Source of the DNA: Methylohalobius crimeensis 10Ki | GTDB lineage: Bacteria; Pseudomonadota; Gammaproteobacteria; Methylococcales; Methylothermaceae | Direction: 5' to 3' | Assembly: GCF_000421465.1 (NCBI RefSeq) | Contig: NZ_ATXB01000002.1 | Location: forward strand, 548,690 to 612,689 | DNA length: 64,000 nucleotides | In this document: positions 39,527-58,205 of the stretch, in pieces | How the letters are laid out: each line of letters starts with the position of its first letter | How positions within the stretch are numbered: position 1 is the first letter of the stretch | Position numbers and translations under genes: made by a program | The notes under the pieces: generated by a model | The model's database searches: none | What the model was told of the DNA's origin: nothing | Seen by the model: only the letters and a program-made list of their open reading frames with translations

Positions 39527-41833
39527 GTGAATGAAAATGAAACACCCGAAGCGATGGAACAAAAGCTGACGGAGCAATATACCGAGGCTTTGCGGGACTA
39601 TCTGGCTGGCGCCGAGAAAGAAGCCTTACGGCGTGCTTATCGTATCGGGCGGCGGACGGCGGAAGAGAAAGCGACTCTCTCGCCCCTGGCGGCGGCCCAT
39701 CACGAAACCGTGGCGAAGTTTTTGTCTCCGCTCGTCAAGCCGCAACCGGACGCAAGCGCTGACATTCAAGACACCTTGCACCGGGCTTCGATCCCCTGGA
39801 AGGCGGTTTTGCAAGGTTATGAAGCAGCCGTCAAAACCTTACGTCAAGCCCACGAGGCGTTGGAAAGCCAGACTCAGAAACACGTGACCGAGCTGGCGGA
39901 GGCCAACGAGACGCTGGAAGCGGAAATCATGGAGCGCAAGCTGGCTGAAATGGCCTTGCAGGACAGCGAGGCCCGCTTTCGCGTGATCTTCGAAAGAGCG
40001 GGCATCGGCATGAGCCTGCTGGATCGGGACGGAAAAGTGCGGGAAAGCAACCAGGCCCTGGAGCGGATGTTCGGTTACAGCAAAGCGGAGCTGCATGGCA
40101 AAGTCCTGTTCGAACTCACCTATTCGGAAGACAAAGAAGTCAGCATCCGCTTATTTCAAGAATTGGTGGCGGGCAAACATAGCCATTACAAATTGGAAAA
40201 GCGCTTTATCAAACGAGACGGATCGCTGCTTTGGGCGCGCAAAATCGTTTCCGGAGTCTATGGAATCGATGGCGAACTGCAGTTCGCCATCGATATGATC
40301 GAAGACATCACCGAAAGCAAACGCGTGGAAATGGCGCTCCGGGAAAGCGAGGCTCGATTTCGCCAGATCGCCGACATGACCGGCGAATGGATCTGGGAAC
40401 AGGATGAAACCGGTCGCTATATTTACTCCAGCGCTGCGGTGGCCGAGATTCTCGGTTATCGACCGAAGGAGATCATCGGAAAATACTATTACGAATTATT
40501 CACCCCGGAAGACCGGAAACGCATCGCTGTGAGCGCTCCTGAAACAATCGCCAAAAAGGAGACCTTTCACAGCATCACCAATCGCTACCAACATAAAAAA
40601 GGCTATGAGGTCTATACCGAATCCACCGGCACGCCGATCCTGGACAGCCACGGTAAGATACTCAAATGGCGAGGGGTGGATCACGACATCACCGAGCGCA
40701 AGCGCTTCGAGGATGAGCTGCGCCTTCGGGACCGCGCCATCGAGGCCTCCAGCGTCGGCATCATCATCACCGATGCCCACCGACCGGGCAACCCCATTAT
40801 CTATGCCAATCCGGCCTTTACGGAAATCACGGGATACAGCCGGGAAGAGTTGATCGGGCGGAATCCCCGCTTCTTGCAAGGCCCGGAAACCGATCCCGAG
40901 GCGAATGAGGAGATTCGACAGGCCGTGCAGGAAGGCCGCGACTGTCATCTGACGCTAAAAAATTACCGCAAGGATGGCACCCCTTTTTGGAATGAATTGT
41001 TAATCTCGCCGGTACGGGACGAAGACGGCAAGGTGACCCATTACGTGGGCACCCAGACCGATGTCACCGAACTCAGGCGGGTGGAGGAACAGCGCCATGA
41101 AATGGAAATCGCCAAACAGATTCAATTATCCCTGCTCCCCCCGGCGCCGTTGCATAAGGACGGCATCCAGGTGGCGGGTTTTTGTCTCCCGGCCGCCCAT
41201 GTGGGCGGCGATTACTACGACTATTTCAGCATGAAAGACACCGTGGACCTGGTGATCGCCGATGTTTCCGGTCATTCGGTAGGCGCGGCGATGATCATGG
41301 CCGAAACCCGCTGCACCTTGAAAATGGAGACCCTTTGGCTCATGAAGGAGAGTACGAGTGTCGCGAACGCCGCGTCGGAAAACCTCGCCATCCTGAACGA
41401 ATTGCTCTTCGAGGATCTGAACCGGGCCGAACTCTTCATCACTATGTTCTACGCCCAATACCACATCGCCAGCCGTAAGCTCAGCTATGCCAATGCCGGC
41501 CACAACCGCCCCCTGCTCCTGCGCCGAGGCGAAAGCCTGGAATTGGATGCCGACGGGCTCATCCTGGGGGTGAGCAAAGAGGTGGCCTTCGAAGAAAAAC
41601 AGCTTACCTTGGAAGATGGAGACGTGCTGCTCCTTTATACCGACGGCATCACCGAAGCCCAGAATAAAAGCGGGGAATTTTTCGGTGAGGCGCGCTTAAA
41701 GGAACTTTCTACCGCCCATGTCCAAGCCTCGCCCCAAGACATCATCGACGCCGTCATCCGGGAATTGGAGGCTTTTTGCCAAAGCCAATCCTTTCATGAC
41801 GATATTTCCCTGCTGGTTTTGAAAGTCGCCTGA
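39527..41833 (+). CDS. PAS-PAS-LOV-like-SpoIIE phosphatase, stress regulator
   Basis: A 768-residue cytoplasmic sensor. Residues ~1-90 are helical and resemble the RsbU N-terminal domain that binds RsbT; a coiled coil follows. Then come two PAS domains (~145-265, ~275-390), a LOV-type PAS (~400-515) and a SpoIIE/PP2C domain (~525-768) whose metal aspartates are in GGDYYDY, IADVSGH, YTDGITEA and HDDIS. The LOV photoactive-cysteine motif GRNCRFLQ reads GRNPRFLQ with Pro 447. GGAG precedes the GTG start at 39527. It would dephosphorylate a STAS antagonist in response to redox, ligand or light signals. Confidence 0.85.
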   Translation: MNENETPEAMEQKLTEQYTEALRDYLAGAEKEALRRAYRIGRRTAEEKATLSPLAAAHHETVAKFLSPLVKPQPDASADIQDTLHRASIPWKAVLQGYEAAVKTLRQAHEALESQTQKHVTELAEANETLEAEIMERKLAEMALQDSEARFRVIFERAGIGMSLLDRDGKVRESNQALERMFGYSKAELHGKVLFELTYSEDKEVSIRLFQELVAGKHSHYKLEKRFIKRDGSLLWARKIVSGVYGIDGELQFAIDMIEDITESKRVEMALRESEARFRQIADMTGEWIWEQDETGRYIYSSAAVAEILGYRPKEIIGKYYYELFTPEDRKRIAVSAPETIAKKETFHSITNRYQHKKGYEVYTESTGTPILDSHGKILKWRGVDHDITERKRFEDELRLRDRAIEASSVGIIITDAHRPGNPIIYANPAFTEITGYSREELIGRNPRFLQGPETDPEANEEIRQAVQEGRDCHLTLKNYRKDGTPFWNELLISPVRDEDGKVTHYVGTQTDVTELRRVEEQRHEMEIAKQIQLSLLPPAPLHKDGIQVAGFCLPAAHVGGDYYDYFSMKDTVDLVIADVSGHSVGAAMIMAETRCTLKMETLWLMKESTSVANAASENLAILNELLFEDLNRAELFITMFYAQYHIASRKLSYANAGHNRPLLLRRGESLELDADGLILGVSKEVAFEEKQLTLEDGDVLLLYTDGITEAQNKSGEFFGEARLKELSTAHVQASPQDIIDAVIRELEAFCQSQSFHDDISLLVLKVA

Positions 41834-41908: not shown

Positions 41909-42838
41909 ATGACCACGCGGCCTCAAACCGAAGTAAAAGTTACGCAAGTGGAAGAGAAACCGTTACTCCAGGTGAAAAACCTGGTTTCGGCACTCATCGG
42001 TTTTACCCTGTTTTACCTCGCGGTCCGCTGGTATCAGGAAGCTTACGGTTGGACGAAGGGCTTGGACGCCTATTCACCGGAATTCAAGCTTTATTGGATG
42101 AGCCTGATGTATGTGGAGCTGGCATTGGAAGCCGTCGCGGCCGCCGCCCTCTGGGGCTGGTTATGGAAGACCCGGGATCGCCGTTTGGAGGATTATTGGA
42201 TGCACCTCCTCAAACGGGAGATCGCGCTGGAAAGAGTCAAGGGGGCCGAACTGAAGGCATTGCTGAACAAGAAACGGGACCGCGGTTTAGCCATGCTGAC
42301 GCCGCGCGAAGAACTGCGCCGCAACATGACGCACCTGATCTGGTTAGCCGTCTATGCCTGGACTTTCTACTGGGGCGTGAGTTTTTTCACCGAGCAGGAT
42401 GCCACTTGGCATCAAACGGTGATTCGGGACACCGACTTCACCCCCAGCCACATCGTCGTTTTTTATCTGTCTTACCCCATCTTCATCATTACCGGGGGCG
42501 GCGCTTTTCTCTATGCGAAAACGCGGGTGCCCTATTTCGCCAAGGGACTGTCCATCCCCTACCTGATGCTGGTGGTTGGTCCCTTCACGATTCTACCCAA
42601 CGTGGGTTTCAATGAATGGGGACATACCTTCTGGTTCATGGAAGAAATATTCGTGGCGCCGCTGCACTGGGGCTTCGTGGTGTTTTGTTGGTTCGCTTTG
42701 TCGGTCATGGGGGTGATGCTGCAAGTATTCAGCAGTATTTTATACCTGATCGAAAATGACCTTTTATCCGAAAACCCCGAAGCGCTCCTGGTCGAAACGG
42801 GAAAACCGAAAGAACCTTCCTTTCCCTCGATTTATTAA
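41909..42838 (+). CDS. pmoC: Orphan particulate methane monooxygenase subunit C with ~35-residue insertion
   Basis: A 309-residue PmoC, a membrane subunit of the copper enzyme that oxidises methane to methanol. From memory of the Methylococcus capsulatus (Bath) protein, the copper ligands D156/H160/H173 match D164/H168/H181 here (EQDATWH, TPSH) and N227/H231/H245 match N235/H239/H253 (NEWGH, APLH). Between the KTRDR loop and LTPREELRR there are about 35 extra, highly charged residues (~91-125) absent from the Bath protein. No pmoA or pmoB is next to it. It lies 75 bp behind the phosphatase gene. AmoC of ammonia oxidisers is homologous, so the substrate is not certain from this gene alone. Confidence 0.9.
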   Translation: MTTRPQTEVKVTQVEEKPLLQVKNLVSALIGFTLFYLAVRWYQEAYGWTKGLDAYSPEFKLYWMSLMYVELALEAVAAAALWGWLWKTRDRRLEDYWMHLLKREIALERVKGAELKALLNKKRDRGLAMLTPREELRRNMTHLIWLAVYAWTFYWGVSFFTEQDATWHQTVIRDTDFTPSHIVVFYLSYPIFIITGGGAFLYAKTRVPYFAKGLSIPYLMLVVGPFTILPNVGFNEWGHTFWFMEEIFVAPLHWGFVVFCWFALSVMGVMLQVFSSILYLIENDLLSENPEALLVETGKPKEPSFPSIY

Positions 42839-50208: not shown

Positions 50209-50739
50209 CTATCGCTCCAAACAGCAAGTCATCATATAATCATCGTAGTAGTAACCATTTCCCGCATCGCCGATTTCGGCCTTGGCGATGATGAAGCCGG
50301 CTCGCAGATAGGCGCGGACGGCCTGGCGGTTTTTCTTGAAGACGTAGAGATGGATCTCCCGCACCCCGCGCTGTTCGGCCACCGTCTTGACGTGCGTCAG
50401 CGCCCGGGCGCCGATGCCACGGCGGTGATATTCGGGCAGGAGGTAGAGTTTGCTGAGCCGCATCCGGGCTTGGTCGGGGAAGTGATGGTAGGCCAGAAAG
50501 CCGATCCGGTTTTCGGCCTGCTCGATCCATTCGTAGACCGCGCCCCGGGCCATTTCGTCAAGGATGCGGTCCCGGTTCCCGGTGCGGTGCCATAAATAAT
50601 CCATCGCATCCCGGCTCAAAACTTCCGGATAGTAGCAGCATTGCCAGATGTCCCAGCCCATCGCCGCGATGGCTTCGGCGTCGTCCGTGCGGGCGGGGAC
50701 GATACGGATCGCTTTCGGCTTCGGATCTTTTCTATCCAT
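50209..50739 (-). CDS. GNAT-family N-acetyltransferase
   Basis: A 176-residue GNAT protein. The acetyl-CoA loop is in LLPEYHRRGIGARALTHV and the C-terminal VRAYLRAGFIIAKAE strand is typical. Substrate unknown. The ATG at 50739 follows GAGGGGG; the frame is open to 50784. It is the last minus-strand gene after apbE, with ~90 bp between, and could be in the same transcript, but nothing links it to the copper/flavin genes. Confidence 0.85.
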   Translation of the reverse strand: MDRKDPKPKAIRIVPARTDDAEAIAAMGWDIWQCCYYPEVLSRDAMDYLWHRTGNRDRILDEMARGAVYEWIEQAENRIGFLAYHHFPDQARMRLSKLYLLPEYHRRGIGARALTHVKTVAEQRGVREIHLYVFKKNRQAVRAYLRAGFIIAKAEIGDAGNGYYYDDYMMTCCLER

Positions 50740-50828
50740 CGTCGTACCCCCTCTTCCAGAGGTTTTCTCGATCAGATCGAGCATTGTCGTCGGATCGGCA
50801 GATTTAAGCGGAAGAAGATTCCACTATT

Positions 50829-51737
50829 CTAAGCGGAATCCCGGGGTGCCAGCGAGCCGCCGATGTGGCCGTCGACGCGCATCCACAGGTGGGGCAAGCC
50901 CAATTGTTCGAGCCAGGCGGGGCCTTCCTTTTCCTTGAGGATGGCGATGGTGGCGGCGCTGCCCGCCACCACGCAGAAATCCCCCAGCACGCTGACCGAG
51001 GCCAGATACCGCACCGGCCAGCCGGTGCGGGGGTTGAGGATGTGACCGTAGCGCACCCCGTCCACCACTAGGCAGCGCTCGTAGTCGCCGCTGCTGGCCA
51101 AGGCGCCCTCCTTCAGGAATAAGGTCCGGAGCACCGCCTCCGGCCGCCGCGGATGGCGAATACCAACCCGCCACGGACTGCCGTCGGCGCGCGGGCCGAT
51201 GATTTTGACGTCGCCGCCCAGATTGATCACCCCGTGGCGAACCCCCGCTTCTCGCGCCAGGGTCGCCGCACGATCGACCGCGTATTCCTTGACGATGCCG
51301 CCGAAGTCGATTTCCATCCCCGGGGTGGTAAATTCGAGCACCGGCGGCGCCCAGCGGACCCGATGCCAGCCGATTTTGCCGAGCAGGCGTTCGATTTGCC
51401 CGGGCGCCGGCGCTCGTTCCCGATCGAAGCGCCAGGCTTGACGCAGCACCCCGGAGGTGATGTCGAACAGGCCGCCGCTCTGTTCGTAGCAAGCGGCGGC
51501 GTAATCGAGCAAGCCCGCGGTCTCGTCGTCCACTTCGATTTTCCCGCCTAAGGCGGCGACGCGGTTGATTTCCGACAGAAAGCTGTCGCCCCGGTAACGG
51601 GAATAACGGTTTTCCAACCGGGCCACATCGGCGACGACCGTGTCCGCCGCCCGTTTCGCCGCGGCCGGGGTGGCGGCGAAAAGCTGGATTTCGCACGTCG
51701 TTCCCATGGCCTTGAAACCATGCCGGTGATATTTCAT
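50829..51737 (-). CDS. apbE: FAD:protein FMN transferase (ApbE family)
   Basis: A 302-residue ApbE. Typical blocks: FKAMGTTCEIQLFA at the start, DFGGIVKEYAVD, GVINLGGDVKIIG and GHILNPRTGWP. The enzyme attaches FMN from FAD to Ser/Thr in exported target proteins. Most ApbEs are periplasmic lipoproteins, but this one begins at residue 1 with the fold and shows no signal peptide or lipobox, so either it stays in the cytoplasm or the true start is missed. No DGxSGAT target motif was found in its operon partners. The DUF4266/DUF3570 genes lie upstream in the same direction. Confidence 0.9.
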   Translation of the reverse strand: MKYHRHGFKAMGTTCEIQLFAATPAAAKRAADTVVADVARLENRYSRYRGDSFLSEINRVAALGGKIEVDDETAGLLDYAAACYEQSGGLFDITSGVLRQAWRFDRERAPAPGQIERLLGKIGWHRVRWAPPVLEFTTPGMEIDFGGIVKEYAVDRAATLAREAGVRHGVINLGGDVKIIGPRADGSPWRVGIRHPRRPEAVLRTLFLKEGALASSGDYERCLVVDGVRYGHILNPRTGWPVRYLASVSVLGDFCVVAGSAATIAILKEKEGPAWLEQLGLPHLWMRVDGHIGGSLAPRDSA

Positions 51738-51790
51738 GAGTGGGAATCCATCTCAGAGCAATCTCATGAATGCCTTTCATTTCAATTATA

Positions 51791-51833
51791 TCCACCCTCT
51801 TCCTAACCTTCTCCCTCCAATAGGGAGAAGGGA
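51791..51833. repeat. REP-like repeat, copy A
   Basis: TCCACCCTCTTCCTAACC is followed by the near-palindrome CTTCTCCC...GGGAGAAG. The next bases include ACTTTTGC, also present after copy B at 63177. It sits in the ~165-bp gap between apbE and the DUF3570 gene, inside the putative operon. Confidence 0.65.
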
Positions 51834-51901
51834 CCCATACTTTTGCAACACTTTCGTCAACGAGAGAGGAAATATCATCCTGATAGGAATGCTAACCGCA
51901 T

Positions 51902-54547
51902 CTAAAAAGCGTAATTCCAGGAAGCGGTCAACGCCCCTTCGCGCTTCAACTGGAAGCCGTTGACGTCGTCTTGGACCGGCTGCAGCCATTCGAATCGCAA
52001 GACGTTGCCGGCCAGCGGCCATCCCTTGGGGATCAGGGCGTTGACGCCGAAACCTACGTCCACAAAATGCCCGCCTTGATTGGAAGGAAAATCCATCGGC
52101 CCCGAGCGGCCGTTGAAGGCGTTGAAATCCCCGACGATTTTTCCTTGGGCCGTATAAACGCCTCGCACCGACAATTGCAGCCAGTCGGTCATCCCGTAGC
52201 CGCCCCAGACGGTGGACTGGAAGACGTTGCCGAGGCGGTAACCGGATTCATTTTCATCCTGCAGGCGCACGGTGCCCCTCACCTGAGCCCCCCAGGACCA
52301 GCGTTCCTGGTGACCGGTATAGGTGAGGCTGGGCAGGAAATCCCAGGTGCCGCTGCCCAGCTGCATTCCGAAGTGCACCAGACCGCCGTCCTGCTGAGCG
52401 GTGCGCCGGAATTCCAGATCCACTGAGCCGGTGGGGGCACTGATGCCGAGCCCCAGGTGCATATGGTGTCCCGGAAGGTCGAACAGGCGGATCAACGAAG
52501 CCATGATGGTGTCGCCCACGCCGCCCGTGGTATGGCCGACGATGCCCGTATGTTCGTGGACTTCCGGTACCGGCGGCGGGCGCCCTTCCAGCTCGCGCAG
52601 GTTCATTTCCATGCTCATGAATTGAGGCATCAGCATCAGATTCAGCCAATCGGTGGGCGCGTACATGATTTCCACCATGTGCATGTACCGATCCATATAG
52701 GTCGGCGCGAACCGGCAGCCGATGTCCCGGCAGCCGTCGGCGACCACGGTCCGGTCGCTCGCGGTATTCGAGCCGTGCAGCAGTTTTTTGGGACCGTCCC
52801 GCCGGCTGTAGTTGAATCGGTACCCCACCATGAAGGGGGTGGCGCTGGGCATCATGTGGGCGTACATCAAGCCGGCGGGCACCAGGTGGCTGGCATGATG
52901 ATGGTGGTGGTGCTGGGTGTGATGATCCTCAGGCATGCTGAAATCGAGTGATTCCAAATCCACCGTGAGAGCGGCGTTGGCCACGAAATAATTGAAATCG
53001 GCAAACGCGTCTTCCCCGCCGCCGCCCAGTTTCAAGGAGCCGGCATGGCTGTAATACTCGAAGCCCGCCTCCAAGGTGACTCCTGGGGTGAATGCCTTGC
53101 TCACCGTGATCCCGCCGCTGAGGGTGCCGAATCCCGATAGGCGATGGTCGCTGGAGAAATGATCGGGCAGTTGATCGCGGTCGAAGGACTGGATTTTGGG
53201 ACGGGCGTTGACCGCGTTCTCGTCCACCACGTTGCCGTCGGCGTCCACCAGATCGAAGTTTTCGTCACGGAAGAATTCTTGCCCCTGATCATCCACCCAG
53301 ATCTCCCGCCCCCGATCGTCCCTGGCGATCTCGCTGAAACGCTGGAAGGAAAACAGGAACGGGCGGTAGAAATCGGCGTCGTTTTGGGAGTAATAGCGGA
53401 TGCGGGGCGCGATCGTCCAGCCGCCGCCCAAGGGTTGCACCCAATCGGCCTCGAAGGTGTGGGCGGAAATGCCCCAGTCGTCGCGGGAGAATTGATAATC
53501 GAAATGCAGCGCCGCATCCAGGGGCTTGATATGCTGCACCCATTTGACCCCGACCGTCCCTTGATTGCGCTCGCCGGGGCGGTTTTCCAGCAGCGCGCGC
53601 ACGTCGCCCGAGAGAATGGCATTGGAAGCCTGATCAGGATCGACGAAGATGACGCTGACCGCCTTGTAGGGATTTTCCAAGTAGCCGCTGCTGTGGGTGA
53701 AGCCCAGGTTGACATCGATCAGGGAATATTTGCTCACCACCTGGGTCAAGCCCAGATTGGCGGCGAAATCGCTTCTTTCTTCCCGGAGGATTTCCGAACC
53801 CGACTTGAAGCTGATTTGGTCCTGAAAATCCACCTGGGTGATATAGGGGGCGGCGTCGGAATCGAGCACCGCGGTGATGTCGCTGTCGGTGTAGCTGACG
53901 CCGCCCTTCAAGGTGGTCAGCTTCTGGTTGAAATCCCAGCGCCCGCTGAGCCCGCCGAACGCGGATTCGTAGTCGCGCTCCACGGAGAGCCCGCCGTTGA
54001 TCGCCAACGCCGCGTTGTCCCACTCGTATTCGAGATTGAAATCCCCTTGCCGGCGCGCCTCCGGCGAGGCGGTGGCGAGCACATGGACCGAGCGTGATTC
54101 CACGCCCAGCACTTCCCCGGTAATGGAGTCCCTCTGCAGGGGGTTCAGGTCGGAATCCAAAAGCACCGGCCGGTTGAGCATGGGAGAAGCCCCCACCACC
54201 GTGTCGCCTTCGCGAATGGGGCGGTTGCTGCCCGCCGCCAGGGGCGCGGTGGCCACCGGCGTCGCCCCCGACCACACATCTTCGATGAAGTTGAAGCCGA
54301 ATCGCAGTCGGTCGGTCAGCCCGATGTCGCCGTTCAGCCGGAAGGTATCCACCTGGAGGGGATCCATGCTGTTTTTGACATTGAACAGATCCCGCTCACC
54401 TTCCTGGTAACGGCTGTATTGCACGCTGACCGAATCGGTCTCGGCGGCCAATCCCGAAGTCTCCAGCAAACCCGGCAACACCAGGGCCGCCGAAGTGAGG
54501 GCTTTGAGCGCGGAATGGGCGGAGGATTGCTTACCCGGGCTGTCCAT
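51902..54547 (-). CDS. DUF3570 outer-membrane protein fused to a second barrel by a His-rich linker
   Basis: An 881-residue exported protein. After a signal sequence (LTSAALVLPGLLETSGLAAE) residues ~30-535 are a DUF3570-type beta barrel with many alternating strands. A linker near 540-555 reads EDHHTQHHHHHHASH. Residues ~555-881 resemble a separate family of outer-membrane proteins common near copper genes: GLMYAHMMPSATPFMVGYRF, MVEIMYAPTDWLNLM, SAPTGSVD, MQLGSGTWDFLPSLTY, ending in WNYAF. Both halves normally stand alone, so this is a fusion. The ATG at 54547 overlaps the DUF4266 stop (TGATG), so it is coupled. Role inferred: metal-related outer-membrane transport or anchoring. Confidence 0.8.
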   Translation of the reverse strand: MDSPGKQSSAHSALKALTSAALVLPGLLETSGLAAETDSVSVQYSRYQEGERDLFNVKNSMDPLQVDTFRLNGDIGLTDRLRFGFNFIEDVWSGATPVATAPLAAGSNRPIREGDTVVGASPMLNRPVLLDSDLNPLQRDSITGEVLGVESRSVHVLATASPEARRQGDFNLEYEWDNAALAINGGLSVERDYESAFGGLSGRWDFNQKLTTLKGGVSYTDSDITAVLDSDAAPYITQVDFQDQISFKSGSEILREERSDFAANLGLTQVVSKYSLIDVNLGFTHSSGYLENPYKAVSVIFVDPDQASNAILSGDVRALLENRPGERNQGTVGVKWVQHIKPLDAALHFDYQFSRDDWGISAHTFEADWVQPLGGGWTIAPRIRYYSQNDADFYRPFLFSFQRFSEIARDDRGREIWVDDQGQEFFRDENFDLVDADGNVVDENAVNARPKIQSFDRDQLPDHFSSDHRLSGFGTLSGGITVSKAFTPGVTLEAGFEYYSHAGSLKLGGGGEDAFADFNYFVANAALTVDLESLDFSMPEDHHTQHHHHHHASHLVPAGLMYAHMMPSATPFMVGYRFNYSRRDGPKKLLHGSNTASDRTVVADGCRDIGCRFAPTYMDRYMHMVEIMYAPTDWLNLMLMPQFMSMEMNLRELEGRPPPVPEVHEHTGIVGHTTGGVGDTIMASLIRLFDLPGHHMHLGLGISAPTGSVDLEFRRTAQQDGGLVHFGMQLGSGTWDFLPSLTYTGHQERWSWGAQVRGTVRLQDENESGYRLGNVFQSTVWGGYGMTDWLQLSVRGVYTAQGKIVGDFNAFNGRSGPMDFPSNQGGHFVDVGFGVNALIPKGWPLAGNVLRFEWLQPVQDDVNGFQLKREGALTASWNYAF

Positions 54548-54765
54548 CAATAACAGCCGCAGCCTCCGCCGCCGCTACTGCGGGCGCTACCGCCCGCCTC
54601 GCGGCTGCCATGCACGTGCTCTCGCACCGAGTTCTGCAGCGGATAGGGATCGAGGGCCATTTGCGGCTTGGCCAGGTAGCCTCTCTCCCAAGGCGGGACC
54701 TGGGCGCAGCCGATCAAGCCCGAGGCAATGAACAAAAGTGGCATTATTTTCGTTTTTATTCTCAT
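54547..54765 (-). CDS. DUF4266 lipoprotein
   Basis: A 72-residue lipoprotein: signal IMPLLFIASGLIGC with the lipid cysteine, then the DUF4266 core VPPWERGYLAKPQMALDP and the Gly/Cys tail SGGGGCGCY. The function is unknown, but the family nearly always precedes DUF3570 genes, often with thioredoxin and ApbE genes, as here. The ATG at 54765 puts the lipobox at a normal distance; an ATG at 54783 adds six residues. The stop overlaps the DUF3570 start. Confidence 0.85.
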   Translation of the reverse strand: MRIKTKIMPLLFIASGLIGCAQVPPWERGYLAKPQMALDPYPLQNSVREHVHGSREAGGSARSSGGGGCGCY

Positions 54766-54787
54766 TGGGAAATATCCAAACATCGTG

Positions 54788-54816
54788 AGGCCCTCCCTAC
54801 AAGGGAGGGAGGGCCT
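54788..54816 (-). promoter_or_regulatory. Perfect hairpin between tlpA and the DUF4266 gene
   Basis: Eleven-base perfect arms (AGGCCCTCCCT / AGGGAGGGCCT) with a seven-base loop. No T run follows on the transcribed strand. It lies immediately ahead of the DUF4266 start, so it may be an mRNA processing or attenuation element that sets different levels for the upstream and downstream halves of the operon. Confidence 0.5.
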
Positions 54817-54841
54817 GAGTATTTATCATGCAGGGAAACAA

Positions 54842-55330
54842 TCAACCGTCCGGCGACGGCTCGGCCACCAGTTTCTCGATCGCGCGGCGCAGTTCATCCG
54901 CGTCCCCCGACCGGAAGCCCAAATGCCGATAGCGAACCTCGCCGGTGCGGTCGATTAGATAGGACGCGGGCATCCCCTGCACGCCGAAATCCTTGGCGCA
55001 TTGCGCCTCCGCATCGGCGAGCACGGTGAACCGGGGCGGGAATCGTTCCAGGAAATTTTCGGCATCGGTCCGGTTCTCGTCCAGATTCACCCCGATGACG
55101 GCAAACCCCCGGTCCTGCAGATCGCTTTCCAGGTCGTTCAAGAATTTGAAGGCATGAGCGCACGAGGTGCACCAGGAAGCCCAAAAATCCACATACAACA
55201 CCTTGCCTTGCTGGATCTCTCGCAACTGGCGGCTCTCCCCGCCGTCCAGGGAGGTCAGGGTACAGTCGGGCAAGGGGGCAGCCTGGGCGTAACCGCTCAA
55301 GCCGATCATCAAAAGCACAATCCACCGCAT
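54842..55330 (-). CDS. TlpA/ResA-type periplasmic thioredoxin
   Basis: A 162-residue exported thioredoxin-fold protein with signal VLLMIGLSGYAQA. The redox motif is WCTSC in DFWASWCTSCAHA, and a cis-proline is in GMPASYLIDR. It probably reduces or oxidises cysteines of exported partners in this operon, e.g. the two cysteine-bearing proteins upstream or the CGC tail of the DUF4266 lipoprotein. Start is one base after the stop of the upstream gene, so they are co-translated. Confidence 0.88.
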   Translation of the reverse strand: MRWIVLLMIGLSGYAQAAPLPDCTLTSLDGGESRQLREIQQGKVLYVDFWASWCTSCAHAFKFLNDLESDLQDRGFAVIGVNLDENRTDAENFLERFPPRFTVLADAEAQCAKDFGVQGMPASYLIDRTGEVRYRHLGFRSGDADELRRAIEKLVAEPSPDG

Positions 55331-55331
55331 G

Positions 55332-55802
55332 TTACTGGGGGGTATCGATCTGTCTGATGGTGATGTCGGTGCCGGTATGAATATTGTTTTCCGACATGCA
55401 ATGCCATTCCACCTCGAAGGATCGAGGCCCCAAACCGGTCTTGTCGACCAACATCGTATACGTGCCGCTCCCGCCGAACAGCTCCACCGGGGCGCTGAAT
55501 TCGCCGTCGCCGGAAAACTCGTCGGTCACGCTGATCGCCTGGCGACCTTTGATAATTTGCATGTTCACCAAGAGTCCCGCCTCGGGCGGGGACTGATCCT
55601 TAACCCGGGCGAACAGCTTCGCCGTCGGAGGTAAATTATCGCTGGAAGAACAACTGATGTCCGCCATATCGGTGGCATGGGGGTTCGCGCCACCGGGATC
55701 GAGAACCGTCCCGCCTGTATGCGCCTGGGCGGTCGCCGCAAACAAAGCGACCACCCCCGTCAACCATCGGGCAATCGGTCTGCCCGGCCATATCGTTTTC
55801 AT
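55332..55802 (-). CDS. Small exported protein with predicted N-terminal histidine
   Basis: A 156-residue protein. The signal (WLTGVVALFAATAQA) is predicted to be cut after residue 27, leaving HTGGTVLD with His as residue 1. The mature ~129 residues look all-beta, with cysteines in ISCSSSD and WHCMSEN that could pair, and histidines in NPHATD, EWHCMS and NIHTGT. I know no family. An N-terminal His plus internal His/Cys suits copper binding as in CopC- or LPMO-type His braces; this is inference. It lies between the YcnI-like gene (59-bp gap) and tlpA (1-bp gap). Confidence 0.75.
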   Translation of the reverse strand: MKTIWPGRPIARWLTGVVALFAATAQAHTGGTVLDPGGANPHATDMADISCSSSDNLPPTAKLFARVKDQSPPEAGLLVNMQIIKGRQAISVTDEFSGDGEFSAPVELFGGSGTYTMLVDKTGLGPRSFEVEWHCMSENNIHTGTDITIRQIDTPQ

Positions 55803-55861
55803 TCACTCACCTCTTCTTGGGACAAGGGGCGGGTGGAGCCCCGCTCCACCCGATGACCCGC

Positions 55862-56629
55862 TTACGGTTGCGGCCATATCCGTTGGCCGTTCATTTCAAC
55901 CGGCATGTCGCGATCGAGCTGCGTCGCCGAGGGGAATATTCTCACATCGAAGCCGTTTCCGCAGCTTTCGGGAAGCGGGCTGTTCTCCAGATCGCGCTCA
56001 ACCGTGAATGAGGCCGGATAGGACCAATCCGGCGCATCGAAGGAAGAGCCGGCATCGGGGGCGGTCCACAAATCCACGACTCCATCACCGAATCCCTCGA
56101 CGGAGCTCAACTGACACACGTTGGCGATGGCGGGAACCAAGTTCACGCTGTTGGCGCAGGATTCGTCCTGAATATCCACCGAGGAAATGCGCAGCGGTAG
56201 CTTGCCCACCCAATTGGAAGCGGGCAACTCCCCGTCCGCGGCCCAAAAACCGACCGGGTTGCCCACCGTATCGCTGATGAGACCGGACTTCGCGAACACG
56301 TCATTGCTTTTGATCAAGCGGATGAATCCGCCTGCGGCGACAAAATCCGCGGCGGTTTGGCCGCTGGTTTCAAAAGTTTCGAACCCGTCGGTCGATGTTT
56401 GCACGATCGAATCGGTCTGATCGGGCATGACGAAGACGTTGCCGATCACCGGATTGCCGTCGCAGCCGTGGGGAATCACCACGGCGGTGTCGTAAGTGCC
56501 GTGGGCGGACGTGCTTTCCTGCACCACCGGATTGTCCAGCCGGGTATGCGCCAGCGCTCCCTGGATAAAAAAGGCCGAGGCCGCCAGCACAACACCGATT
56601 TTAACGGCTCTGTAATTTTGGGTTGTCAT
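55862..56629 (-). CDS. YcnI/DUF1775-like exported protein, candidate copper binder
   Basis: A 255-residue protein. After a 27-residue signal (VVLAASAFFIQGALA) the mature protein starts HTRLDNPVV. The strand AVVIPHGCDGNPVIGNVFVMP strongly resembles the DUF1775 core of YcnI, whose N-terminal histidine binds Cu(II) in a monohistidine brace in Bacillus subtilis. It is longer than YcnI and has four cysteines (HGCDG, ESCAN, VCQLS, ESCGN). It is the first gene of the minus-strand operon and has repeated operator-like motifs ahead of it. Function as a periplasmic copper chaperone is inferred. Confidence 0.75.
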   Translation of the reverse strand: MTTQNYRAVKIGVVLAASAFFIQGALAHTRLDNPVVQESTSAHGTYDTAVVIPHGCDGNPVIGNVFVMPDQTDSIVQTSTDGFETFETSGQTAADFVAAGGFIRLIKSNDVFAKSGLISDTVGNPVGFWAADGELPASNWVGKLPLRISSVDIQDESCANSVNLVPAIANVCQLSSVEGFGDGVVDLWTAPDAGSSFDAPDWSYPASFTVERDLENSPLPESCGNGFDVRIFPSATQLDRDMPVEMNGQRIWPQP

Positions 56630-56654
56630 AGTTGATTCCTCCGGGAAATGAAAA

Positions 56655-56847
56655 GTGTGTGATATGCCGCACCTCGATTCCGAGGCGGGCCGGGCGCTTG
56701 CTTCTTATCCTTGATTATTATGAGCAAGGCAGCACAAGCTCTAAGTAGAGCTTGCAAACCAAATGCCAATCAAAAATAACAATGATTTACATTAAAAGCC
56801 GGTCAAAAAAGTGCGGCATTTCACACACTAGTGCGGCATTTCACACA
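56655..56847. promoter_or_regulatory. Three copies of a 17-bp motif upstream of the YcnI-like operon
   Basis: GTGCGGCATTTCACACA occurs at 56811-56827 and again at 56831-56847, exactly 20 bp apart (two helical turns). A third, inverted and slightly different copy (GTGTGTGATATGCCGCAC) lies at 56655-56672, 26 bp ahead of the first gene. Part of the motif, TGTGA-N6-GCACT on the minus strand, is reminiscent of a CRP/FNR-family half-palindrome. Spacing and number suggest a regulator-binding region. The 390-bp gap 56630-57020 otherwise holds AT-rich DNA and the aspC terminator and no gene. Confidence 0.6.
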
Positions 56848-56970
56848 GTTGGATTTCCGGCAAGGGAGGATTAAGTTCCGTTGACGTCACAGCGAGGGTC
56901 GACGGGCATCTTTCGGGACCAATCGCAGACCTTCGGGCCCGGCAGGATGCACTGAGGAAGGTGAAAGCAG

Positions 56971-56996
56971 GAAAACCGGCCCGGAATCGGGCCGGT
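56971..56996 (-). terminator. Terminator of aspC
   Basis: Nine-base arms ACCGGCCCG and CGGGCCGGT with a four-base loop, followed on the minus strand by a T run, 25 bp past the aspC stop. It separates aspC from the YcnI-like operon. Confidence 0.7.
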
Positions 56997-57020
56997 ATCG
57001 AGGAATGCTGGCCGAATGGT

Positions 57021-58205
57021 TCAGCCGTTTGCGGTCTTTCCGATCCGATCCACCGCGTTTTCCAGATTTTCCATGCTGGTGGCGATGGACAGACGGACAT
57101 GACCCGGGGCGCCGAAGGCGGTTCCGGGGACCAGGGCGACGCCGGCCTTTTCGATCAGGTACTCGGAAAGCGCCAAGTCGTCCTCGAGACCCAAGCGTTC
57201 GATCATTCCGGCGACCTTGGGAAACAGGTAGAACGCGCCCTCCGCCGGCAGGCAATCGATCCCGGGAATTTGGTTGAGGGCCCCGACCACGAAATCGTGG
57301 CGCTGCTTGAAGGCCTCGACCATCCTTCCGATACAGCTTTGATCCCCTTCCAGCGCGGCGACGGCGGCGGCCTGGGAGATGGAAGCGGGATTGGAGGTGC
57401 TCTGGGACTGGATCTTCTTCATCGCCCCGATGACTTCCTTGGGACCCGCCGCGTAACCGATCCGCCAACCGGTCATGGAGTAGGCCTTGGAAATGCCATT
57501 GAGAACGAAGGTACGATCGGACAGATCCGGACAGGCGTTGAGGATATTGCAGAAACTCCCCTCCTCCCAAACGATGTGTTCGTACATGTCGTCGGTGGCG
57601 ATGGCCACTCGGGGATGCTTGAGCAATACTTCCCCCAGCGCGGCGAATTCTTCCTTCGTGTAGAGCTTGCCGGTGGGGTTGGAGGGGCTGTTGATGACGA
57701 ACAGTTTGGTGCGGGCCGTGATCGCCGCCTCCAGTTGCTCGGGCGTGATCTTGAATGCCTGCGCTTGGCCCGCCTCGATGAAGACAGGGGTGGCTCCGGC
57801 CAGAAGCGCCATGTCGGGATAGGACACCCAGTAAGGCGCGGGGATGATCACTTCGTCGCCTTCGTCCAGCATGGCCTGGGCCAGATTATAGAAGCTCTGC
57901 TTGCCCCCGCAGGAAACCAGGATTTGATCGGTCTGGTATTCCAAGCCGTTGTCGCGGCGGAACTTGTCGGCCACCGCCTGTTTCAAAGAAGGAATCCCGT
58001 CCACCGGCGTGTATTTGGTCATCCCGGCACGGATGGCCTCGATGGCGGCCTGCTTGATATGCTCGGGGGTATCGAAATCCGGCTCCCCGGCGCCCAGGCC
58101 GATCACGTCGTGGCCCTCGGCGCGCATCGCCGCGGCGCGGGCGGTGATCGCCAGGGTGGGAGAAGGTTTGATGCGATTGACGCGTTGGGAAAGTGATATG
58201 GTCAT
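57021..58205 (-). CDS. aspC: Aspartate aminotransferase (class I PLP enzyme)
   Basis: A 394-residue fold-type I aminotransferase of the AatA group. The PLP lysine is in NGISKAYSMTGWRIGYAAGP; NSPSNPTGKLY and the C-terminal RLSIATSMENL are typical. It interconverts aspartate and oxaloacetate using glutamate/2-oxoglutarate. Length and start (LSQRVNRIKPSPTLAI) match the family. It has its own terminator. Confidence 0.92.
   Translation of the reverse strand: MTISLSQRVNRIKPSPTLAITARAAAMRAEGHDVIGLGAGEPDFDTPEHIKQAAIEAIRAGMTKYTPVDGIPSLKQAVADKFRRDNGLEYQTDQILVSCGGKQSFYNLAQAMLDEGDEVIIPAPYWVSYPDMALLAGATPVFIEAGQAQAFKITPEQLEAAITARTKLFVINSPSNPTGKLYTKEEFAALGEVLLKHPRVAIATDDMYEHIVWEEGSFCNILNACPDLSDRTFVLNGISKAYSMTGWRIGYAAGPKEVIGAMKKIQSQSTSNPASISQAAAVAALEGDQSCIGRMVEAFKQRHDFVVGALNQIPGIDCLPAEGAFYLFPKVAGMIERLGLEDDLALSEYLIEKAGVALVPGTAFGAPGHVRLSIATSMENLENAVDRIGKTANG

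Follow-up and report, generated by a model that had tools for sequence, protein, structure and literature searches.

We describe a six-gene operon of Methylohalobius crimeensis 10Ki that we consider, with chances evenly balanced, to encode a metal-handling and redox system of the cell envelope, with copper as the most likely metal, in bacteria equipped with a copper-containing membrane monooxygenase; this reading draws on sequences, predicted models and analogy with published proteins. The operon occupies positions 50829-56629 of the 64,000-nucleotide stretch analysed here (contig NZ_ATXB01000002.1, positions 548,690 to 612,689 of the forward strand), hereafter called the window. Its last four genes form a flavin and thiol core, to which are added genes for a YcnI-like protein and for P2, a small exported protein of an unnamed family, as well as a second domain, rich in histidine and methionine, fused to the core protein DUF3570. 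The core has been described before; the extended form, its occurrence mainly in two guilds of copper-monooxygenase bacteria and the P2 family appear to be new, none of the three having been found in the literature searched, whose coverage was thin, with few subscription journals and no preprints.

To our knowledge, how copper passes the outer membrane in Gram-negative methane and ammonia oxidizers that do without methanobactin is largely an open question. A gene set common to both guilds offers a concrete and quickly testable candidate for this passage. If the reading is true, it would give a role to the published, functionless DUF3570/DUF4266 system; P2 brings in a further protein family, so far without a name, that probably has a metal site.

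Organization of the operon

An open reading frame (ORF) check of the window confirmed the series of six minus-strand genes that an earlier note on this DNA had laid out. In operon order they encode the YcnI-like exported protein (55862-56629), P2 (55332-55802), a TlpA/ResA-type thioredoxin-fold protein (54842-55330; PF08534, E 3e-23), a small DUF4266 protein (54547-54783; PF14086, E 1.5e-19), an 882-residue DUF3570 fusion protein (51902-54550; PF12094, E 6.9e-114, at residues 16-522) and an ApbE flavin mononucleotide (FMN) transferase (50829-51737; PF02424, E 7.6e-75). Successive genes are separated by 59, 1, 58, -4 and 164 bp, the fourth value becoming -1 if DUF3570 begins at its ATG. Pfam places the ApbE, DUF3570 and DUF4266 genes next to each other on one strand; the YcnI-like protein and P2 have no Pfam or NCBIfam match at E<=0.1.

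A published flavin and thiol core

The thioredoxin-DUF4266-DUF3570-ApbE series is a flavinylation cluster published among the 'DsbD systems' by Meheust et al. 2021 (PMC8238504). The last four genes of the operon are therefore of a known kind, and the co-occurrence of DUF4266, DUF3570 and ApbE genes stated in the earlier note is borne out. Published cluster and operon share the four core proteins, the flavin motif of DUF3570 and the CxC end of DUF4266; the operon adds the YcnI-like gene, P2 and the fused His/Met-rich domain. The main text of the article contains none of the words 'copper', 'Methylo' and 'Nitroso', and reports 316 clusters without a neighbouring dsbD. The three DsbD_TM matches that mark DsbD-like genes in the genome of the window all lie outside the operon, dsbD being optional in the published cluster.

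Flavinylation by its ApbE has been shown for the Chlorobium luteolum DUF3570 protein, at two [S/T]GA[S/T] sites (PMC8238504). Our protein has two putative flavin sites, of which SGAT at residue 94 fits this motif and VGAS at 119 deviates at its first letter; among 100 fused DUF3570 proteins of P2 loci, motifs of the form [S/T/V]GA[S/T] number at least two in 66, one in 32 and none in 2. The earlier note had suggested that ApbE may load FMN on a partner; by analogy with the published ApbE substrate, this partner is most likely the operon's own DUF3570 protein. ApbE begins nearly at the start of its domain, and a simple hydrophobicity test (matches starting after model position 25 left out, fewer than 11 residues before the domain counted as no signal) revealed no hydrophobic N-terminus here or in 84 of the homologues, of which 90 were examined, 75 of them from P2 loci. 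If ApbE stays cytosolic, flavin attachment to DUF3570 may therefore precede export.

The predicted CxxC thioredoxin is indeed there, with CTSC in a thioredoxin-fold protein whose N-terminus is signal-like by eye, and CxxC recurs in 90 of the 92 thioredoxin homologues of P2 loci; its best models are Redoxin (PF08534) and AhpC-TSA, and PF13899, the family named by Meheust et al., is not among its eight Pfam hits. DUF4266 carries, by eye, a lipobox-like LIGC and ends in GGGCGCY; the pattern GGxCGC is present in 100 of 102 homologues of P2 loci and in 19 of 19 elsewhere. In the DUF3570 fusion, we again found the His-rich linker of the earlier description, with up to nine His per 20 residues, and 93 of the 100 fused proteins of P2 loci have at least five His within some 20-residue stretch. 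Over its 337 residues, the second domain (about residues 546-882) has 19 His and 18 Met, against nine His and three Met in the first 520 residues of the protein. Judging by its lone relatives, which are annotated as transporter, outer membrane beta-barrel protein or alpha-amylase, it is probably barrel-like.

Two forms of the operon and their distribution

Gene content and order were read in 60 fetched loci and the window, then in 15 more; of this first set of 76 loci, 20 were chosen for lacking P2 and 57 have a P2 hit, 43 of them with contig room. The operon comes in two forms, a short one made of the thioredoxin, DUF4266, DUF3570 and ApbE genes, and an extended one that adds the YcnI-like gene, between one and three copies of P2, and the fusion of DUF3570 to the second domain. 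Where DUF4266 and DUF3570 are both present, 51 of 52 loci with P2 have the fusion versus 7 of 18 without P2 (Fisher p 1.6e-7), and 35 of 52 versus 1 of 18 have the YcnI-like gene (Fisher p 4e-6), p-values that serve as a guide only, the loci being related. Four loci that we assign by inference to the genus of M. capsulatus (G024, G027, G042 and G048) contain just the short core, and the main text of a copper transcriptome paper on M. capsulatus contains neither 'thioredoxin' nor 'ApbE'.

A scan of one genome per species yielded 59 P2 loci, hereafter the named loci, of which 32 are titled Nitrosomonas or Nitrosomonadaceae, 14 are titled as methanotrophs and 13 are loosely titled metagenome bins; the pattern used for the scan, a single short peptide taken from close relatives, would miss more distant P2 genes. 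In the 37 named loci with contig room, a YcnI-like gene lies upstream of P2 on the same strand in all 37, and downstream are found the thioredoxin (34), DUF4266 (34), DUF3570 (34), the second domain (33) and ApbE (29), all six genes being present in 26. The corresponding figures for the 43 loci with room of the first set, in the same gene order, are 26, 28, 37, 37, 37 and 24, with all six in 17; the two sets share genomes (for example, L061/L158 and L063/L176). The association exceeds chance, since genomes of Nitrosomonas and of methanotrophs repeat both the gene set and its order, and the survey of neighbour conservation suggested in the earlier note comes out in favour of a conserved set.

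Within the order of the window's genome, P2 occurs in 47 of 121 genomes (this one included) and DUF4266 in 73. In the class, P2 is rare, with 4 of 369 genomes, two of these outside the order; both of the two have pmoA/amoA, versus 1 of 40 other genomes tested. A phylum-wide draw gave P2 in 2 of 398, namely the window's genome and one already found. The YcnI-like family (E<=1e-5) is present in 7 of these 369 genomes, and four of the seven fall outside the order.

The YcnI-like protein

The naming of the first protein as YcnI-like cannot be demonstrated from sequence, since PF07987 matches one of 21 family members, at E 0.14; the window protein itself matches no Pfam family at E<=1. The resemblance named in the earlier note is supported by predicted structure: for the model (mean predicted local distance difference test, pLDDT, 83.3), the top Foldseek match is Bacillus subtilis YcnI (E 5e-4), and a second structure aligner ranks three YcnI entries first (Z 11.3, 11.2 and 10.9), followed by an uncharacterised Nocardia protein (3esm; 10.1), the next row being at 6.4. 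At Z 11.3, the root mean square deviation is 2.7 with 127 aligned of 129 residues, and the alignment starts with model residue 28 on YcnI chain residue 27, His on His.

His28 follows an AxA sequence and is the probable mature start of the protein. In the family alignment (8 of 119 ORFs removed as identical), His28 is conserved in 108 of 111 sequences, His54 in 108 and Trp188 in 105 (six gaps), most of the other rows being gapped at these positions; four Cys are also conserved. The Cu(II) site of YcnI consists of His27, Glu50 and Trp137, and many proteobacterial DUF1775 proteins retain the His and the Trp but not Glu50 (PMC8424229). Our protein shares with YcnI/DUF1775 the fold, the N-terminal His, a conserved Trp, not necessarily in the place of Trp137, and export; unlike them, it falls outside PF07987, is longer, has the conserved His54 and four Cys, and has flavin/thiol genes as neighbours. 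His54 may substitute for Glu50. A relay from a YcnI-type protein to a histidine brace has a precedent: Cu(II) passes between YcnI and the histidine-brace domain of YcnJ, and losing either impairs copper-limited growth (PMC12362106).

P2, a small protein with a conserved N-terminal histidine

P2 also has an AxA-His sequence, with His28 as probable mature start. Its predicted model (mean pLDDT 87.9, and at least 93 in the blocks of residues 31-150) is all-beta, the first strand beginning at His28. The top fold matches are the C-terminal domain of a Thermococcus protease (Z 10.7), then collagen-binding domains of collagenases, and GOLD domains; no solved copper protein is among the matches listed, which is not evidence against one. 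Sequence searches of the PDB with the YcnI-like and P2 families gave nothing useful, and a search of P2 against plasmids gave no match.

After removal of 11 of 152 ORFs as identical, 141 sequences were aligned, in which Cys51 is conserved in 140, Cys135 in all 141 and the N-terminal His28 in 109. The loss of His conservation that the earlier note had raised was checked for in both His proteins and not found. A complete set of His28, His134 and His142 is found in 103 sequences and none of the three in 21; the remaining 17 are mixed, including nine with Asp-His-His. The state without any of the three requires five changes on the best tree, at least two of which are forced by well-supported branches. 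Fisher p-values for the triad (1e-13 to 3e-20) were rejected as strong proof because the tree shows few losses; an independent-pairs test had too few pairs for significance, and the co-loss of the histidines is thus a small sample.

Of 23 tandem P2 arrays, 15 contain both a copy with the complete triad and one without it. A single polypeptide of L137 (7699-8868) combines P2 with a YcnI-like domain, and the latter then lacks a free N-terminal His. At L178, L185, L198-L203 and L145, there are P2 copies that carry Asp where others have the N-terminal His, and some of them adjoin heavy-metal resistance-nodulation-division (RND) or P-type ATPase genes.

P2 invites comparison with several known groups. 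Histidine-brace proteins (such as CopC, LPMO and PmoB) combine an N-terminal His with further conserved His, as does P2; the best fold matches of P2 are the protease, collagen-binding and GOLD domains named above, and its metal binding is putative. PmoD/AmoD is likewise a family of methane and ammonia oxidizers with a link to copper, which for P2 is putative; PmoD, of the CuA type, has a membrane helix at its C-terminus and is often encoded in pmo/amo operons (PMC6189053), whereas the P2 model has no such helix and the gene lies in an operon of its own. DUF4198, DUF6702 and anglerases are exported proteins whose mature chain begins with a metal-ligand His, as is probable for the two His proteins of the operon; the article that treats them (PMC12537917) mentions neither Nitrosomonas, methanotroph nor Methylo in its main text.

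Association with copper monooxygenases

Of the 53 distinct P2 genomes from the one-genome-per-species scan, 50 were searched for pmoA and pmoC (L186, L191 and L206, titled methanotrophs, were left out). A copper-monooxygenase gene was found in 41 of the 50, pmoA/amoA in 25 and, over the cut-off, pmoC/amoC in 16 of the other 25, in support of the link with copper-monooxygenase bacteria drawn in the earlier note. All 11 P2 genomes titled as isolates (a title without 'MAG' or a bin name) have pmoA/amoA. The window itself carries pmoC/amoC, as had been noticed, on the plus strand at 41909-42838 (PF04896, E 2e-115), about 8 kb from the operon; two copies of pmoA are on another contig of the genome. 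As a separate observation, this pmoC/amoC gene, apart from pmoA, follows a PAS/SpoIIE regulator gene (39527-41833).

A possible function and its alternatives

The operon may work as follows. The YcnI-like protein would bind Cu(II) through His28, His54 and Trp188, and P2 through His28, His134 and His142, both passing metal onward; electrons from the periplasmic thiol pool (DsbD-like genes lie elsewhere in the genome) would flow by way of the thioredoxin and DUF4266 to the FMN of DUF3570 and reduce the metal, which the His/Met-rich second domain would then take over at the outer membrane. The least certain step is the direction, which would be uptake rather than efflux; we infer it, as well as the metal of P2, the electron path and the reduction. 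In its most specific form, the proposal would be a reductive copper-acquisition machine of methane and ammonia oxidizers, in which an outer-membrane DUF3570 charged with flavin and fed with electrons by the thioredoxin and DUF4266 handles Cu(II) from the YcnI-like protein and P2, the latter being a new family of N-terminal-histidine metal proteins that often occur as pairs of a metal-binding and a metal-free copy; this joint claim is tentative and falls well short of probable.

Copper is favoured because the fold match to YcnI sets model residue 28 on a Cu(II)-ligand residue, because the P2 triad is mostly kept or lost as a whole, because P2 and a YcnI-like domain are fused in L137, and because P2 is common to methanotrophs and Nitrosomonas and its genomes mostly hold a copper-monooxygenase gene. 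It is favoured further by the fused second domain of P2 loci (51:1, versus 7:11 without P2), and by the CusA/CzcA-type RND genes and the P-type ATPase genes, whose scanned member is over the copper-ATPase cut-off, that stand beside a few loci. The redox relay is favoured by the flavinylation of the C. luteolum DUF3570 protein and by the DsbD-like genes of the genome.

Several points weigh against this reading. The independent losses of the P2 triad are few, and ApbE apparently lacks an export signal while its substrate is expected to be exported. Several of the pmoC/amoC matches are short or contig-end fragments, and 9 of the 50 P2 genomes have neither pmoA nor pmoC; five of these are titled Nitrosomonas, Nitrosomonadaceae or Methylococcaceae and four are unplaced (L154, L184, L185 and L189). 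PF04744 was unmatched in the nine, as it was in its positive control. In the genus of the window, P2 is present in 2 of 10 genomes and pmoA in 7 of 10; the genus being mostly without the operon though pmoA is common, the operon is not needed for the monooxygenase. The idea that P2 tracks pmoA within the order was rejected, pmoA being found in 37 of 47 P2 carriers versus 56 of 74 others. The RND adaptor scores higher as CzcB/IhpB than as CusB, and the P-type ATPase also exceeds a cadmium-type cut-off. An N-terminal His site can favour nickel, from which DUF4198 and DUF6702 gained their largest stabilisation (PMC12537917). Finally, the literature searched offered no experiment, expression or metal-binding data on the operon.

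The same parts could serve detoxification, binding an excess of copper, or of some other metal, within the envelope, oxidising or reducing it there and handing it to efflux pumps, which we hold to be unlikely. An RND pump of CusA/CzcA type, its adaptor and an outer-membrane factor do adjoin the operon in 5 of the 59 named loci (L198 and L202-L205), P-type ATPase genes of one cluster lie near it in four (L184, L199, L205 and L206), a lone relative of the second domain is found near a CusA/CzcA pump in Methylocystis, and the operon is patchy even among close relatives, as resistance genes are. However, these neighbours concern a small minority of loci, and the five RND loci, all from Nitrosomonas or similar bins, resemble one orthologous place; P2 at L198, L202 and L203 is moreover the variant with Asp for the first His, perhaps with a different job (the sequences from the remaining two loci, being identical to another, had been removed). 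One member of each neighbour cluster was scanned, that of the ATPase cluster scoring 578 bits as a copper ATPase (cut-off 397) and 415 as a cadmium-type one (cut-off 313.5).

Quite unlikely, in our view, is reductive assimilation of iron, with the flavin protein and thiol relay reducing ferric iron and the His proteins binding another metal or being structural. What keeps iron in play is that 25 published DUF3570 clusters include a VIT1 iron transporter (PMC8238504) and that a second-domain relative annotated as outer membrane beta-barrel, on a plasmid of Methylosinus sp. C49 (L210), is flanked by PepSY and feoB genes and preceded by genes for a TonB receptor, FecR and a sigma factor, a set that is perhaps the iron counterpart of the present operon. 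Among the recurrent neighbours of P2 loci, few of which were scanned, no iron transporter was recognised. By general chemistry, ferric iron is a poorer fit than copper or nickel for sites with several His, and the match to a Cu(II) protein points the same way. We would give just as little credit to a general thiol and flavin redox system of the envelope for protein repair or assembly (of the monooxygenase or c-type cytochromes, for instance), to which metal-binding proteins were added without a role in transport. It would explain that the core exists without P2, since of the 20 loci picked as P2-free (L081-L100) 19 lack P2, save for a weak hit in L093, and 19 lack the YcnI-like gene; lone second-domain relatives also adjoin ccm/dsbE genes in Ruegeria. 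Yet the YcnI-like gene, P2 and the His/Met-rich domain travel as a set, which a purely thiol-based system would not need.

Noncoding elements and other neighbouring genes

Upstream of the first gene, at 56654-56847, lie three copies of an 18-19 nt repeat with consensus GTGCGGCAT[T/A]TCACACA, two in tandem 20 bp apart and one inverted, which on sequence grounds are candidate regulator sites forming a candidate operator. No further match within three mismatches occurs elsewhere in the window, and the triple arrangement is absent from the other fetched loci; single exact matches in L108 and L143 are both away from the operon start. As for the gaps within the operon, the tight spacing and the hairpin of the earlier description stand, the latter having 11 pairs and lying between the thioredoxin and DUF4266 genes (54788-54816, in the 58-bp gap). 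The 164-bp gap between DUF3570 and ApbE contains an inverted repeat, seen by eye, as a candidate for the repetitive extragenic palindromic element of the earlier note, and positions 50500-57100 gave no Rfam match.

Three further genes recur near such operons. A HEAT-repeat secreted protein, whose N-terminal part resembles an STN domain by eye (one member scanned), is encoded near P2 in 34 fetched loci, two of them outside the order, mostly just upstream (for example, L112:7088-8314); this gene was not found in the window. A cluster of MauG/MbnH-like di-haem genes, of which the member scanned is below the NCBIfam cut-off, was seen in nine loci (including L084:4103-6358) near DUF3570 operons mostly without P2, three of the nine having it. 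Finally, a fused major facilitator superfamily/spermidine synthase gene stands beside the operon in 16 of the 59 named loci (for example, L174:4235-5839, the one scanned), and a cluster of such genes, judged by eye, is represented in 25 loci of the relatives.

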